Assembly: GCA_947589605.1 (NCBI GenBank)
Contig: CANQBR010000004.1
Location: 1-64,000, forward strand
Direction of reading: 5' to 3'
DNA: 64,000 nt
From: an uncultured Phascolarctobacterium sp.
Lineage (GTDB): Bacteria; Bacillota; Negativicutes; Acidaminococcales; Acidaminococcaceae
This document shows positions 36,340 through 41,951 of this stretch, piece by piece. Each line of letters begins with the position of its first letter. Within the stretch, counting starts at the first letter, position 1. The notes under the pieces were generated by a model. It saw only the letters and a program-made list of their open reading frames with translations, did no database searches and was not told where the DNA came from. Position numbers and translations under genes: made by a program.

Positions 36340-36453
36340 TATCGAAAAAAATAAAAGAACGATACGCTCTTACCGACGATCTTTTGCGAAAAAGGAGCCG
36401 GCTCGGGAGCGAGAACGGGAAAGAAAAAATTTTCGCCGGAGCCTCATGTGGGC

Positions 36454-37416
36454 TCAAGCCTTGGGCGCACGAAAATTATTTTGGAAAATCTTTGCGGTCA
36501 GGTCCATAAAAGTGAGCATGTATTTGGGATGGACCTCGTCTTTGCGGCAGACCAGAGCCAAAGCGTTGAGCAAGGTCTCGTCCAAGAGAGGGATCACCAG
36601 CAGGTCTTTTAAAAGAGAAGGCCTTTCGGCGGAGGAAGAGACGAGGATCATCTCCAGCACTAAAGCGGCGCAGTAACCCTGACGGCAGAGGGAGAGCATG
36701 GAGCTGCCCCGATTGGAAACGATGAGCTGGTTGGGCTTGCGGTCTTCTTTGATGAAAAGCTGCTCCACGGCGGCGTGGATGCGGGTGCGGGCCGGGCTCA
36801 AGATCAAAGGGATGTCCATGAGCTCCCGCATGTGGGCCCCTGACCTCATCAATTTTTTGCCGTCGGCGGCGGGATAATATTTTTTCAACAACTCTTCGGA
36901 AACGAGGAAGAAGAGATGCTCCTGCATCAGGTCCAAATAAGAAAAGAGAGGATTGTCGAAGCGGGGCTCGCGGCAGCGGGAAGCGATGACGATATCCAGC
37001 TCGCCTTTTTGCAGCAGCTCTTCCAGTTGAGCGGTGTGAGCTTCCACCAAAGTGAGGGTGACATTGGGATGGACCTTGTTGAAGAGGGGCACGATCAACG
37101 GCAAAAAGCCCTGCACCCGGGCGGGGGAGATGCCGATGCGCAGAGTGCCGTAATTATTTTCCGTCATGTAGCTGAGGCGGGCCTTCAACTGCTCGTCGAT
37201 CTTCAGCATTTGCCGGGCAGCCTCCAAGAGCTGAGTGCCGGCGAAAGTGAGCCGCACCTGAGGCTTTCGGTCGAAAAGTTTGACGCCGTAGCAGTCTTCC
37301 AACTTTTTGATGTGCAGGCTCAAGTTTTGCTGAGTGATGTACATGTTGGCGGCGGCCCGAGTAAAATTCAATTCTTTCGCCAATTCGATAAAACATCGGA
37401 GCGAGAAAAAATTCAT
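36454..37416 (-). CDS. LysR-family transcriptional regulator
   Basis: Likely regulator of the divergent RraA-SLC13 operon. The N-terminal winged helix-turn-helix reads FIELAKELNFTRAAANMYITQQNLSLHIKKLE (about 7-38). The ligand-binding domain starts near 90 (GTLRIGISPARVQGFLPLIVPLF). 320 residues from ATG 37416, which has AGGAGG 7 bases upstream; the frame continues 20 codons further without a ribosome site. LysR regulators usually bind the pathway substrate or product and control the divergent promoter, here within 37417-37658. Confidence 0.93.
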   Translation of the reverse strand: MNFFSLRCFIELAKELNFTRAAANMYITQQNLSLHIKKLEDCYGVKLFDRKPQVRLTFAGTQLLEAARQMLKIDEQLKARLSYMTENNYGTLRIGISPARVQGFLPLIVPLFNKVHPNVTLTLVEAHTAQLEELLQKGELDIVIASRCREPRFDNPLFSYLDLMQEHLFFLVSEELLKKYYPAADGKKLMRSGAHMRELMDIPLILSPARTRIHAAVEQLFIKEDRKPNQLIVSNRGSSMLSLCRQGYCAALVLEMILVSSSAERPSLLKDLLVIPLLDETLLNALALVCRKDEVHPKYMLTFMDLTAKIFQNNFRAPKA

Positions 37417-37489
37417 CGCAGCGCCTCCTGCGAGCCTAGGCTCTTTGCTCTGACAATTATAACTTGTCCGCTTCACAAAAATAACTGAT

Positions 37490-37518
37490 TTTACTTACAT
37501 TTTACTTTACTATATCAT
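37490..37518 (+). promoter_or_regulatory. candidate promoter/LysR control region of the catabolic operon
   Basis: TTTACT (37490-37495), 17-base spacer, TATCAT (37513-37518), a weak match as expected for an activated promoter. TTTTACTT-like direct repeats (37489-37510) overlap it, and the palindrome GGAAAATTTTCC lies at 37536-37547. Confidence 0.45.
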
Positions 37519-37658
37519 AGTTTGCAAAGAGCAAAGGAAAATTTTCCGCAAAATCTTCCCGCTCGCGAGTCGTAATTTTTTGACGAAGGCTTGCCCGAAA
37601 AATCGAGGCGAGCACGCAGTCGACGGATGATGAACGATCATGCAAAGGAGGAACTGTC

Positions 37659-38360
37659 ATGTCCGTAGGTAAGAGAATTTATTTGCAACGTGAAATGCCC
37701 GATCCGGAAGTGATGGCCCAATTCAAGACCATCCCCGCATCCAACACCGCCGATGTGATGGGACGCAGCTGCGCCATGAATCCCCGCATCAAATTGGTGA
37801 GCAGCCCCAAAGATCAGATGATGGTGGGCCCCGCCTTCACCGTTAAAGGCCGGGCAGGCGACAACTTGGCTCTTCATGCCGCTTTGAATTTCTGCCGCGA
37901 GGGCGATGTGTTGGTAGTGTCCAACGAAGAGGACGACACCCGCTCCCTGATGGGCGAAGTGATGATGGCTTATTTGAAATATACGAAGAAAGTGGCCGGC
38001 ATTATTTTAGACGGGCCCATCCGCGATATCGACGAGATCGGCAAATGGGACTTCCCCGTTTACTGCACCGGCACCACTCCCGGCGGCCCCTATAAAGAAG
38101 GTCCCGGCGAGATCAACGTGCCCATCTCCTGCGGCGGCGTCAGCGTCAACCCCGGCGACATCATTTTGGCCGACCCGGACGGCGTCATCGTCATCCCCCG
38201 CAAAGATGCTCCCGTTATTTTAGAAGAAGCGAAAAAATTCCAAGCCGCCGACGAAAAGAAACTGGCAGCTGCCAAAGACGGCACCGCCAACAGAGCGTGG
38301 GTGGAAAAAAGTTTGGCAGAAAAAGGCTTCGAGATCATCGACGACGTCTACAGGCCCTGA
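37659..38360 (+). CDS. RraA/HMG-aldolase family protein
   Basis: Class II (metal-dependent) pyruvate aldolase or oxaloacetate decarboxylase fold, homologous to 4-hydroxy-4-methyl-2-oxoglutarate aldolase and to RraA. The 233 residues show TIPASNTADVMGR near 24, VGPAFTV, GE at 99-100 and the metal/substrate motif LDGPIRDIDEI with R122 and D123. The C-terminal GDIILADPDGVIVIPR is a family signature. A regulator-of-RNase-E role is unlikely because RNase Y is used here. AAAGGAGGAAC precedes ATG 37659. First gene of the divergent operon. Confidence 0.9.
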   Translation: MSVGKRIYLQREMPDPEVMAQFKTIPASNTADVMGRSCAMNPRIKLVSSPKDQMMVGPAFTVKGRAGDNLALHAALNFCREGDVLVVSNEEDDTRSLMGEVMMAYLKYTKKVAGIILDGPIRDIDEIGKWDFPVYCTGTTPGGPYKEGPGEINVPISCGGVSVNPGDIILADPDGVIVIPRKDAPVILEEAKKFQAADEKKLAAAKDGTANRAWVEKSLAEKGFEIIDDVYRP

Positions 38361-38439
38361 GCCCAGAGTTCGAGCCGCAAGAAAAGTTTCGGCCGCGAAA
38401 ATGCATGAAAAATATTTTTAGTTGCGAAGGGAGGCTGTT

Positions 38440-39711
38440 ATGGCTCCGTCCACGATCTGCATCATAATCTTAGTTCTGGCGATCATCTCTTTCTTACTGG
38501 AAAAGATCCCGGTCAACATGACCGTTATGCTTACCCTGATCTCTCTCGTGCTGCTGCGGTTGGTGACCCCCGCACAGGCCATCGCCGGCTTCGCCGGCAC
38601 CACCATCCTGATGCTGATCGGCGTCGTGATCGTGGGCAGCGCCCTTTTCGAGACCGGCGTCTGCGATAAGATCGCCGCCACGGTCACCAAATTCGCCAAG
38701 ACCGAACGGCAGATGATCATGGCCATCATGGTGATCTCCAGCATCATGTCCGCCGGCTTGAGCAACTCCGGCACCGTAGCGGTCTTCATCCCCATCATCA
38801 TGGGTATTTGCGCCACTACCGGCTTCAGTCACTCCAAACTTTTGATGTCTGCCTTTTTGGGCTCCATGGCCGGCGGCCGGCTCACTCTGGTAGGCGATGC
38901 CGCCATCAACGTATTGATCGGCGATCAGATCAAAGCTTTAGGCTATCCCTTCGGCTTTTTCGAGATCAGCAAGATCGGCGTGCCTCTCACTTTGATCATG
39001 CTGGTCTACACTTACTTCATCGGTTACAAATTTTTGCCCGACATCAAAATCAAAGGCATGGACGATCAATTGTTCAACAGCAAAGAGCCGAAGAACGCTC
39101 CCCGTTGGAAGCAGATCGCTTCCGTGGTCGTCCTCTTCTTGGTGTTCGTGGCCATGATCTTCGAAAAACAGACGGGCATCCCTTCTTATATGGTGGCCAT
39201 CATCGGTGCGGTGATGGATGTGCTGCTGGGCATCTTCACCGAGAAGCAGGCCTATCAATTGGTCAGCATCAAGACCGTCATCCTTTTGGGCGGCATGGTG
39301 CCTTTGGCCACGGCTCTTAAAAATACCGGCGCCGCCCAGATCATCGCCGATCAATTGATCTGGATCATCGGCAATTCTACCAACGTCTATTTCATCACCA
39401 TCGTCATCTTCGTCTTGACGGTCATCATGACGCAGTTCATGTCCAATGTGGTGGCGGTCACCCTTTTGATGCCCATCGTCATCGCCATCGCCAACACCAT
39501 CGGCGTCATCCCCTCCGCTTTGATCATGGTGCTGGGCATCGCCTCCACTATGTCCATCCTCAGCCCCATCGCCTGCCCTCCCGCCAACTTGATCTATTCT
39601 TACGGCGGCTACAAGTTCTCCGACTATTTGAAGAGCAACATAGGGCTGACCTTGGTGTTCTTGGTGGCCTGCATAGTGCTGATCCCCATGATCTGGCCTC
39701 TGTACGGCTGA
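38440..39711 (+). CDS. SLC13/DASS family carboxylate permease
   Basis: Polytopic inner-membrane transporter of 423 residues with 10-12 hydrophobic segments. Both halves carry a Ser-Asn signature: GLSNSGTVAVFIPI in the first repeat and QFMSNVVAVTLLMPI in the second, which form the Na+/carboxylate site in DASS proteins. The helix-break LTLVGDAAIN also fits. ATG 38440 follows AGGGAGG; an upstream TTG (38422) is less likely. Being in the operon, it probably imports the substrate, likely a di- or hydroxycarboxylate. Confidence 0.9.
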   Translation: MAPSTICIIILVLAIISFLLEKIPVNMTVMLTLISLVLLRLVTPAQAIAGFAGTTILMLIGVVIVGSALFETGVCDKIAATVTKFAKTERQMIMAIMVISSIMSAGLSNSGTVAVFIPIIMGICATTGFSHSKLLMSAFLGSMAGGRLTLVGDAAINVLIGDQIKALGYPFGFFEISKIGVPLTLIMLVYTYFIGYKFLPDIKIKGMDDQLFNSKEPKNAPRWKQIASVVVLFLVFVAMIFEKQTGIPSYMVAIIGAVMDVLLGIFTEKQAYQLVSIKTVILLGGMVPLATALKNTGAAQIIADQLIWIIGNSTNVYFITIVIFVLTVIMTQFMSNVVAVTLLMPIVIAIANTIGVIPSALIMVLGIASTMSILSPIACPPANLIYSYGGYKFSDYLKSNIGLTLVFLVACIVLIPMIWPLYG

Positions 39712-39736
39712 GCCTTTGCCAAAGGAGAGAGGGTAG

Positions 39737-40870
39737 ATGGAACTTCTCATTCGTAACGTTATATTGACAGACACGAAGAGCGGCCGAGAGAGCGAGGCTG
39801 ATGTAGTCGTCGACGAGGGGAAGATCGCTTCTTTGGAGCCGGCGGGCACGGTGCCCGAGACGGGGAAGAAAGTGCTTGAAGGCAACGGCGATCATCTGCT
39901 GCCGGGCCTCGTCGATTATCACACTCATCTTTTTCGCCACGGCAGCACCTTCGGCCTGGATGCGGATCTTTTACTCGGCGCCGGTGTCACCACCGCCGTG
40001 GATATGGGCACCGCCGGTTGGGTGAATTATCCGGCCTTCGCCCGCTGCGATCTTCAAAACAAGAAGCTGCGCCTCTTCAGTTATTTGAATGTTTCTCCCA
40101 TCGGTCAGCCGGGCAAGGGCATCAACGAACCCTTAGACGACGAGTTGTTGGATGAAGAAAAAATGGCAGCCGTCATCAGCCGCTATCTGGGTCAGATCAA
40201 AGGCCTCAAGATCAGAGTGAGCAGAGCCATCGTCAAAGAGCTGGGGCTCGCCCCTTTGCGGCGGGCCGTGGAGCTGGGAGAAAAATTGGGGCTGCCTGTC
40301 TGCGTTCACACCACCGACCCGGCAGAAGGGAGCGAAGCAGTAGCCGCCATCTTGAGAGCAGGCGACGTGTACAGCCACGTCTATCATAACAAAGGCTGCA
40401 CTATTTTGACGGAGAGCGGCGAGATCTGCCCGGGTCTTTTAGAAGCAAGGCAACGGGGCGTGCTGATGGAAGTGGGCAACGGCAGGATGAATTTCAGCTT
40501 CGCTGTGGCCAAACAGGCGGCCGCTCACGCTTTTTGGCCCGACATCATCAGCAGCGATTCTACTCCCGCCACTTTTCACAAAGATACGGCCATGTGGGAC
40601 TTGCCTCGGGTGATGAGCAAATTTCTCGCGCTGGGGATGCCCTGGCCTGCCGTCATCCGTGCAGTGACGGAGACCCCGGCGAAAGTGCTGGGCTGTGAAG
40701 ATGAGCTCGCCAAGATCGCCGTCGGCCGCACTGCCGATCTTTTCCTTTGCGAGTTGAAGAAAGAAAAACTGCTCTTCGAAGATTCGGAAGGCAACAAAAC
40801 GGAAGGCAGTTCGGTGCTGGTGCCCCTCGCTACCGTTTATGCGGGCAGACCGGTCTATCGAGCTCTTTAA
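39737..40870 (+). CDS. amidohydrolase of the cog3964 (dihydroorotase-like) group
   Basis: Metal-dependent TIM-barrel hydrolase. HTH at 62-64, candidate bridging K158 (GLKIR), H191 (VCVHTTD), H214/H217 (SHVYHNKG) and D274 (ISSDST) give a full binuclear set. The segment EVGNGRMNFSFAVA matches cog3964 proteins rather than true dihydroorotase. Characterised cog3964 enzymes hydrolyse acetyl esters of R-2-hydroxy acids such as acetyl-R-mandelate. 377 residues, 25 bases after the permease gene, AAAGGAGAGAGGG upstream. The substrate here is inferred, not shown. Confidence 0.88.
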   Translation: MELLIRNVILTDTKSGRESEADVVVDEGKIASLEPAGTVPETGKKVLEGNGDHLLPGLVDYHTHLFRHGSTFGLDADLLLGAGVTTAVDMGTAGWVNYPAFARCDLQNKKLRLFSYLNVSPIGQPGKGINEPLDDELLDEEKMAAVISRYLGQIKGLKIRVSRAIVKELGLAPLRRAVELGEKLGLPVCVHTTDPAEGSEAVAAILRAGDVYSHVYHNKGCTILTESGEICPGLLEARQRGVLMEVGNGRMNFSFAVAKQAAAHAFWPDIISSDSTPATFHKDTAMWDLPRVMSKFLALGMPWPAVIRAVTETPAKVLGCEDELAKIAVGRTADLFLCELKKEKLLFEDSEGNKTEGSSVLVPLATVYAGRPVYRAL

Positions 40871-40885
40871 AAGAAAGGAGAGAAC

Positions 40886-41845
40886 ATGAGCTATAAAGTT
40901 TTGATCCCTCAACCCATACTCCCGGCAGGGTATGAATATTTGAAAAAGTGCGGGTTCACGGCAGTGAACGGACGGGGCTCTTCGGAGGAAGAGATCATAG
41001 CGGATGCAGCCGACTGCGATGCCATGATCGTCCGCACCGCCAAGATCACCGCCAAAATTTTGGACAACGCTCCCAAATTGAAGATCATAGCCCGCCACGG
41101 GGCCGGTTACGATAATGTAGACTTGGAGGCCTGCCGCCGTCATAAAGTGATCGTCGCCACCGCCGGCGGAGCCAATGCCATCTCGGTGGCAGAGCTCACG
41201 ATCTTTTATATGCTCTATTGCTCCCGCAACTTCAAAGCAGTGCTTGCCCATTGCAGAGAAGATTATCGCTATGCCAAGATGACTTTGCCGAAGACAGAAC
41301 TGGAAGGCAAAGTGCTGGGCCTCATCGGCACCGGCAACATCGGCAAATTGGCAGCCCAAAAAGCGGCCTTGGGTTTCAACATGAAAGTGATCGCTTACGA
41401 TCCTTACGCCAAAGAAGTGCCCGACTACATCACGCTGCTTCAAGACAGAGACAAGGTCTTCACCGACGCCGATTATGTTTCTCTCCACATACCGGCCACT
41501 AAGAGCACCATCCACAGCGTGGGGCAGAGAGAATTCGAATTGATGAAGCCCACCGCCTATCTGATCAACACAGCCAGAGGCGCCGTGGTGGATGAAGCGG
41601 CTCTCATCGCTGCCTTGCGGGAGAAAAAGATCGCCGGCGCCGGGCTGGACGTAGTGGAGAAAGAGCCTTTCGATCCGACCAATCCTCTTTTGGAGATGGA
41701 GAACGTGCTGGTGGCTCCCCATATCGGCGGCAACACCAAAGAAGCTTCCGCCCGCTCTTCCGTCGCCTGCGCTCAGGCCGTGGAAGCCTTCTTCGCCGGC
41801 AAAAGGCCTCAATTCGTCGTGCCGGAGCTGAGCGATCTCTTGTGA
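40886..41845 (+). CDS. D-2-hydroxyacid dehydrogenase (3-phosphoglycerate dehydrogenase-like)
   Basis: NAD-dependent oxidoreductase of 319 residues. Rossmann motif GTGNIG (148-153) with D172 as probable NAD selector. Catalytic R231 (NTARG), E260 (VVEKEP) and H279 (APHIGG) are all present. No ACT or ASB domain follows, so it is the short catabolic or general form rather than a regulated serine-pathway enzyme. It is the last gene of the operon (15-base gap, AAAGGAGAG ribosome site) and would oxidise a D/R-2-hydroxy acid to the 2-oxo acid or run in reverse. Confidence 0.9.
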   Translation: MSYKVLIPQPILPAGYEYLKKCGFTAVNGRGSSEEEIIADAADCDAMIVRTAKITAKILDNAPKLKIIARHGAGYDNVDLEACRRHKVIVATAGGANAISVAELTIFYMLYCSRNFKAVLAHCREDYRYAKMTLPKTELEGKVLGLIGTGNIGKLAAQKAALGFNMKVIAYDPYAKEVPDYITLLQDRDKVFTDADYVSLHIPATKSTIHSVGQREFELMKPTAYLINTARGAVVDEAALIAALREKKIAGAGLDVVEKEPFDPTNPLLEMENVLVAPHIGGNTKEASARSSVACAQAVEAFFAGKRPQFVVPELSDLL

Positions 41846-41891
41846 GCCGAAAAGAAAAAGAAAATTTTTAAAATCTCAAAAGAAAAAAGTC

Positions 41892-41922
41892 AGCGCCGAG
41901 GTCCAAGACCTCGGCGCTTTTA
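41892..41922. terminator. bidirectional terminator between the catabolic operon and proA
   Basis: A perfect 12-bp stem, AGCGCCGAGGTC and GACCTCGGCGCT (41892-41918), loop CAA. TTTT follows on plus and an A-run precedes it (T-run on minus), serving both convergent operons. Confidence 0.92.
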
Positions 41923-41951
41923 AAATGCTCGCGCAAAAAAATATTTTTGCT

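Follow-up and report, generated by a model that had tools for sequence, protein, structure and literature searches.

A LysR-linked operon of RraA, DASS, cog3964 amidohydrolase and D-2-hydroxyacid dehydrogenase genes in an uncultured Phascolarctobacterium: a putative route for masked 2-hydroxy-dicarboxylates

The window analyzed here, a stretch of 64,000 nucleotides from contig CANQBR010000004.1 of an uncultured Phascolarctobacterium sp. (assembly GCA_947589605.1), carries five intact open reading frames for a LysR-type regulator, an RraA-type enzyme, an SLC13/DASS transporter, a cog3964 amidohydrolase, and a D-2-hydroxyacid dehydrogenase, the last four of which are arranged as a closely spaced operon (Table 1). 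The gaps between these four genes measure 79, 25, and 15 bp (taking ATG 38440 as the start of the DASS gene), and all five Pfam families score well above their cut-offs, which confirms the arrangement of four tight genes divergent from a LysR gene that an earlier note on this DNA had described. The host genome (G000) amounts to 1.76 Mb and is ~89% complete; we compared it with that of a sister species (G001) and with another Acidaminococcaceae genome (G044). Judged from its genes, the operon is rather likely to be a LysR-controlled catabolic module for a masked 2-hydroxy-dicarboxylate, one that was probably acquired horizontally.

Table 1. Positions of the genes and other features of the locus within the window.
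Feature	Position	Strand	Basis or remark
LysR-type regulator	36454-37416	-	PF00126 63 bits, PF03466 89 bits
Divergent intergenic region	37417-37658	.	Short inverted repeats; promoter-like sites for either direction
RraA-type class II pyruvate-lyase-like enzyme, predicted C-C lyase/decarboxylase	37659-38360	+	PF03737 150.9 bits (gathering cut-off 24.5)
SLC13/DASS-type carboxylate transporter	38440-39711	+	PF03600 201 bits, PF00939 95 bits
cog3964-type binuclear-metal amidohydrolase, predicted ester/lactone/amide hydrolase	39737-40870	+	PF01979, PF07969
NAD-type D-2-hydroxyacid dehydrogenase, without ACT domain	40886-41845	+	PF02826 186 bits, PF00389 108 bits
Intrinsic-terminator hairpin, host locus	41892-41918	.	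Mainly proA on the - strand; possibly bidirectional
Island extent	36426-41951	.	185 bp at the same place in G001; flanks 91% and 88% identical

The operon and the LysR gene together form a discrete 5.5-kb island. At the corresponding place in the sister species, where the two flanks (the radical-SAM gene side and the proA side) adjoin, the 5,526 bp of the window are replaced by the short spacer listed in Table 1, and searches of G001 returned no close match to the RraA or dehydrogenase proteins and none to the DASS protein at 1e-80. Because the operon in this form is absent from other genomes of the family, a gain in the host seems likelier than a loss from the sister species, as far as two genomes of the genus allow the comparison. 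The terminator that the earlier note had assigned to the operon as shared folds into a strong hairpin (-25.2 kcal/mol, z -4.9), but it belongs mainly to the neighboring locus: the T tract that suits it best lies on the other strand, where it serves proA, and G001 has a corresponding hairpin at its empty site, so that it is best regarded as a host-locus element that the operon uses at most bidirectionally.

The LysR protein contains both the HTH_1 and the LysR_substrate domain, and its start is likely ATG 37416 rather than the listed open-reading-frame start at 37476, with profile matches beginning at residue 21. Between the LysR and RraA genes lie inverted repeats (37440-37451 and 37524-37536), and the promoter-like sites found there on either strand are consensus matches only. 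Several related clusters likewise have a LysR gene at their side (L032, L033, L101, L108, and L109).

The RraA protein, encoded by the sole PF03737 gene of the host genome, reaches the cut-off of the subfamily NF004850/PRK06201 (234.3 versus 231 bits) and fails the HMG/CHA aldolase equivalogs TIGR02798 and NF006731 (115 versus 304.5 and 132 versus 179 bits). Its nearest solved structure by sequence is the HMG/CHA aldolase 3NOJ, with whose catalytic and pocket residues G99, H73, R122, D123, and K146 align, R122/D123 being the equivalents of R123/D124 in the Pseudomonas putida enzyme. In HMG/CHA aldolase, Arg-123 is essential, Asp-124 is a metal ligand, and Gly-101, His-75, and Lys-147 belong to the pocket (PMC5065237); all five residues, which we used to recognize a class II pyruvate aldolase, are matched, and for Glu-199, the second metal acid, a conserved D198 that the alignment places with a gap shift is a likely, though not certain, counterpart. 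Because the motif G-(D/E)-x20/21-R-D and the pocket His and Lys are conserved in a protein of the same fold family, the window enzyme likely uses the same pyruvate-enolate chemistry. Class II pyruvate aldolases have oxaloacetate decarboxylase activity in common, with a turnover in HMG/CHA aldolase of 2 per s, slower than aldol cleavage at >10 per s (PMC5065237).

The surroundings of the two enzymes differ. HMG/CHA aldolase works in the protocatechuate 4,5-cleavage and gallate pathways, where a hydratase of ring-cleavage products feeds it, whereas the window RraA, below the equivalog cut-offs and in an operon with no other gallate or protocatechuate gene, would be fed by a dehydrogenase. A gallate/protocatechuate pathway was considered and rejected, since its ring-cleavage partner genes occur in neither the operon nor the related clusters. 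That RraA-fold enzymes are able to serve new catabolic decarboxylations is illustrated by FlDet, an RraA-like 2-keto-3-deoxy-glucarate dehydratase/decarboxylase which, unlike the window enzyme, belongs to the alginate pathway and is itself 20% identical to HMG/CHA aldolase (PMC8563752).

For the transporter, the mechanically called frame opens at TTG 38422, and the ATG behind a GGAGG sequence is the likelier start. The protein resembles VcINDY, its nearest solved structures by sequence being VcINDY-type NadC-family transporters; it falls below the TIGR00785 subfamily cut-off (173.8 versus 198.6 bits) and exceeds those of the Pfam families CitMHS and Na_sulph_symp. Its best named relatives (38-41% identity, on plasmids) sit in tartrate operons, either with tartrate dehydratase and oxaloacetate decarboxylase (ttdAB-oadGAB with an SLC13 permease) or with tartrate dehydrogenase (a Paracoccus locus), a kinship pointing to C4 hydroxydicarboxylates. 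Unlike the window operon, these tartrate/malate loci employ a dehydratase or another dehydrogenase and a biotin-type oxaloacetate decarboxylase, and they contain neither RraA nor amidohydrolase.

The amidohydrolase fits the cog3964 family both in its modeled whole-chain fold and in its HxH, K, H, H, D metal ligands, of which H62, H64, K158, H191, H214, and D274 are invariant in 26 of 26 aligned sequences. An AlphaFold model (pLDDT 93), made from Negativicutes loci only, matched 8je0 best (Z 55.0, root-mean-square deviation 1.6 Å over 370 residues), followed by 8wzy (Z 50.3), 2ics (EF0837; Z 49.5), and 2ogj (Atu3266; Z 48.3), with the other families listed below Z 30. The resemblance to these four enzymes extends over the whole chain, yet identity to the window protein is 25-35% and their operon partners are different. 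Misannotation of cog3964 hydrolases as dihydroorotase or adenine deaminase is evident from the PDB titles of 2ogj and 2ics. For Atu3266 and Oant2987, Ornelas and co-workers reportedly found in 2013 that both enzymes remove the acetyl group from acetyl-(R)-mandelate and from 2-acyloxy acids related to it. A phylum-wide search for close relatives of the amidohydrolase yielded nothing besides the window gene.

A second cog3964 gene of the host genome (contig 8, 18277-19383; L045) stands between genes for a CaiB-type CoA-transferase and an HMG-CoA-lyase-like protein, as it does in G001 (L046). Several Negativicutes have this trio as well, in some cases together with citrate-lyase-like CitDEF (L038, L041, and L047), suggesting another unmasking pathway that ends in a CoA-dependent lyase.

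The dehydrogenase has all the hallmarks of a D-isomer-specific 2-hydroxyacid dehydrogenase, namely both Pfam domains, the Arg-Glu-His triad, and the NAD motif, and R231, E260, H279, the GxGxxG glycines (G145/G148/G150), and D172 are invariant in 10 relatives. With the catalytic residues of this enzyme, the RraA protein, and the amidohydrolase aligned, the intact active sites that the earlier note had seen are upheld for all three. By sequence, the nearest solved structure is the phosphoglycerate dehydrogenase 1wwk, and phosphoglycerate dehydrogenase is also the best NCBIfam model (265 bits). A role in serine synthesis, with the cluster assembled by chance, is nonetheless very improbable and was rejected, because that score lies under the TIGR01327 equivalog cut-off of 454 bits, which a 531-residue SerA encoded beside serC elsewhere in the genome passes with 652 bits, and because the clustering is conserved.

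The four families cluster in other genomes too, and this clustering is not chance. Of the outcomes that the earlier note named as refuting its reading, neither a lack of co-occurrence nor a dehydrogenase of serine synthesis was thus borne out. In G044, an operon (L032) comprises LysR / RraA (59% identity) - dehydrogenase (44%) - DASS (80%) - amidohydrolase (56%) - DUF1932 dehydrogenase; neighboring genes were called by tblastn with reference proteins. Three Pantoea plasmids carry the identical four families in the order hydroxyacid dehydrogenase (54%) - RraA (54-56%) - DASS - metallo-dependent hydrolase (34%), followed by a sigma-54 activator; here the gene order, the DASS subgroup, the amidohydrolase branch, and the type of regulator all differ from the window. 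Among 35 other Negativicutes loci that were found by the amidohydrolase alone, nine have an RraA gene within ~8 kb, compared to 0.06-0.7 expected at 0.1-1.2 RraA genes per Mb, of which 0.7 is the conservative figure, although P values derived from these loci, which are related, overstate the case. A megablast search for an E. coli counterpart in 5,426 genomes gave no match, and a contig scan of genomes with a single-protein query, rather than an alignment, gave one weak archaeal match only.

The association between RraA and the amidohydrolase is not a single inheritance. In the amidohydrolase tree, a single clade of the RraA-linked sequences is rejected (p-AU 6e-35), and at least four changes are required, so the link must have arisen or been lost repeatedly, and other amidohydrolase lineages are tied to CaiB/HMGL, TRAP, DgaE/KDGP aldolase, or MFS genes. 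By contrast, RraA relatives of 53-81% identity form one clade with the window RraA (support 95/88) in which the partners vary. These include a D-2-hydroxyacid dehydrogenase with GltS (L101, L108, and L109); the dehydrogenase with amidohydrolase and DASS (the window, L032, and Pantoea); an SDF symporter with an aspartate-type aminotransferase and an RpiR regulator (L102, L104, L106, and L115); and a LeuCD-type hydratase, joined in L105 by a dehydrogenase and in L100 by a DUF1932 dehydrogenase and a DUF6282 protein. A few members with no such clear partner also occur (L110-L113 and L116), so that the pairing is common, not universal. Most carriers beside the clade belong to dicarboxylate, tricarboxylate, or glutamate types (DASS, GltS, SDF, and TTT). 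The earlier view of the four genes as one pathway unit calls for refinement, in that RraA with a 2-oxo-acid-forming enzyme makes up the conserved core, and the amidohydrolase and the transporter are exchangeable. Since dehydrogenase and aminotransferase partners both make 2-oxo acids, RraA would be the common exit reaction, most likely cleaving an acidic 2-oxo acid for which either a 2-hydroxy or a 2-amino acid can be the precursor, while the hydrolases may unmask different precursors, the amidohydrolase being an interchangeable upstream step.

For the window operon, these family assignments suggest a pathway in which the DASS permease would import a C4-C6 di- or tricarboxylate derivative, the amidohydrolase would hydrolyze an ester, lactone, or amide bond in it and so set free an (R)-2-hydroxy acid, and the dehydrogenase would oxidize that acid with NAD+ to a 2-oxo acid. 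RraA would then break a C-C bond via a pyruvate enolate, which from an oxaloacetate would yield pyruvate and CO2, and from a 4-hydroxy-2-oxo acid pyruvate and another oxo acid. Overall, an acylated or lactonized (R)-2-hydroxy C4-C6 dicarboxylate would be converted via the free acid and the 2-oxo acid to pyruvate, where the order of steps, the substrate class, and the products are all predicted, and the R stereochemistry follows from the families only. The GltS and SDF partners of related RraA genes fit C4-C5 acids. The scheme of import, deacylation, oxidation, and C-C cleavage given in the earlier note gains support in its general form, as does the co-occurrence of the four families, with ring opening as an alternative to deacylation.

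Several findings weigh against this pathway. The amidohydrolase scores below the NCBIfam cut-offs of EF_0837 and PRK12394 (NF009060; 372.9 versus 442 bits, where the Pantoea protein passes with 558.6), and its closest structures, 8je0 and 8wzy, are titled merely "A novel amidohydrolase"; its chemistry is for these reasons extrapolated. Of 380 genomes of the class, a single further one has a close orthologue (56%), such that the exact operon with amidohydrolase is rare; the amidohydrolase from Pantoea, with only 34% identity, sits in another branch of the tree; and the likeness of the DASS protein to tartrate-operon transporters is only ~40%.

The two versions of the final step are about equally likely, as the sequence evidence does not separate them, and each taken singly is rather doubtful. 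In the decarboxylating version, an O-acylated (R)-malate-, tartrate-, or 3-methylmalate-type acid would be freed, oxidized to oxaloacetate or a 3-substituted form of it, and decarboxylated by RraA, with pyruvate or an analogue of pyruvate as the product. This would accommodate the tartrate contexts of the DASS relatives, the aspartate-type aminotransferase and SDF symporter beside related RraA genes, the adjoining LeuCD-type hydratases, which form 2-hydroxy-3-substituted succinates, and the decarboxylation of oxaloacetate by RraA-type aldolases, but the characterized aldolase performs that reaction more slowly than aldol cleavage (PMC5065237), and simpler routes already exist for malate and tartrate. 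In the aldolase version, a 2,4-dihydroxy dicarboxylate in lactone or ester form would be opened and oxidized to a 4-hydroxy-2-oxo acid that is split by retro-aldol cleavage into two oxo acids; the gamma-lactone of 2,4-dihydroxyglutarate (e.g., its 4-methyl form) might, for example, proceed via 4-hydroxy-2-oxoglutarate. Here each enzyme would perform the chemistry that is classical for it, RraA retains the residues of HMG/CHA aldolase, the glutamate-type carriers GltS and SDF beside related RraA genes fit C5 acids, and in L101 a second aldolase, related to 4-hydroxy-2-oxovalerate aldolase, adjoins a 76% RraA relative. Against it stand the RraA scores far under the HMG/CHA equivalog cut-offs and the poorer fit of an aldol scheme to the LeuCD-linked clusters.

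The dehydrogenase could also run in the opposite direction, as a 2-oxo-acid reductase, with the operon regenerating NAD+ or detoxifying and the amidohydrolase unrelated to that substrate. D-2-hydroxyacid dehydrogenases often favor reduction in vivo, and the amidohydrolase occurs with many other modules; however, the repeated occurrence of clusters with both RraA and dicarboxylate importers and the replacement of the dehydrogenase by an aminotransferase point to a supply of 2-oxo acid for RraA, which makes the reductase role improbable.

Placing the proposed catabolic module among its relatives, we tentatively suggest, at somewhat less than even confidence, a modular pathway family across Negativicutes and Pantoea for masked 2-hydroxy- or 2-amino-dicarboxylates, with an RraA lyase as the exit and exchangeable front ends: a cog3964 or DUF6282 hydrolase; a D-2-hydroxyacid or DUF1932 dehydrogenase or an aminotransferase; a LeuCD hydratase; and a DASS, GltS, SDF, or TTT carrier. 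If true, this would give cog3964 and DUF6282 hydrolases and PRK06201-type RraA proteins their first physiological role. The families, folds, and chemistry classes are known, and the operon is by kind a carboxylate catabolic one, but its combination of genes and their modular re-use are undescribed in the open-access PMC literature, which covers few subscription journals and in which we found nothing on cog3964 function, on a pathway joining RraA and a hydroxyacid dehydrogenase, or on relevant PDB entries. Genes of the RraA family, which are widespread, frequently carry annotations as RNase E regulators or hypothetical, and the clade described here is tied to a 2-oxo-acid-forming partner in many gut bacteria, presumed Acidaminococcus fermentans included, where the cluster is composed of LysR-RraA-GltS-dehydrogenase-DASS-DUF6282. 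With a near-identical enzyme set in plant-associated Pantoea, this makes the RraA and cog3964 families testable on a small number of acids that can be obtained, and an acid from the diet or from plants that gut bacteria use could come to light.

Some of the related clusters showed further features. DUF6282 proteins (PF19799) repeatedly lie beside DASS and clade RraA genes (L100, 10166-11002; L103, 8299-9111; L108; L109), taking the place of the cog3964 hydrolase, and are a candidate hydrolase of a related pathway. The compact unit of RraA, SDF symporter, aspartate-type aminotransferase, and RpiR regulator in L102, L104, L106, and L115 has the look of a route by which an acidic amino acid would be broken down through the RraA lyase. 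In G044, two near-identical RraA copies lie ~7 kb apart, one in the cog3964 cluster (L032) and one in a DUF6282 cluster (L103), and a probable IS30-like transposase reading frame between both clusters (contig 7, ~6.9-19 kb) accompanies them, suggesting that these modules were recently duplicated or shuffled. Larger clusters (L035, L036, L044, L066, L069, and L107), which apparently represent another undescribed pathway, combine a cog3964 hydrolase, a DUF1932 dehydrogenase, an HD-domain protein, RraA, a D-2-hydroxyacid dehydrogenase, and an Amidohydro_2 protein with MFS, DASS, or TTT carriers.

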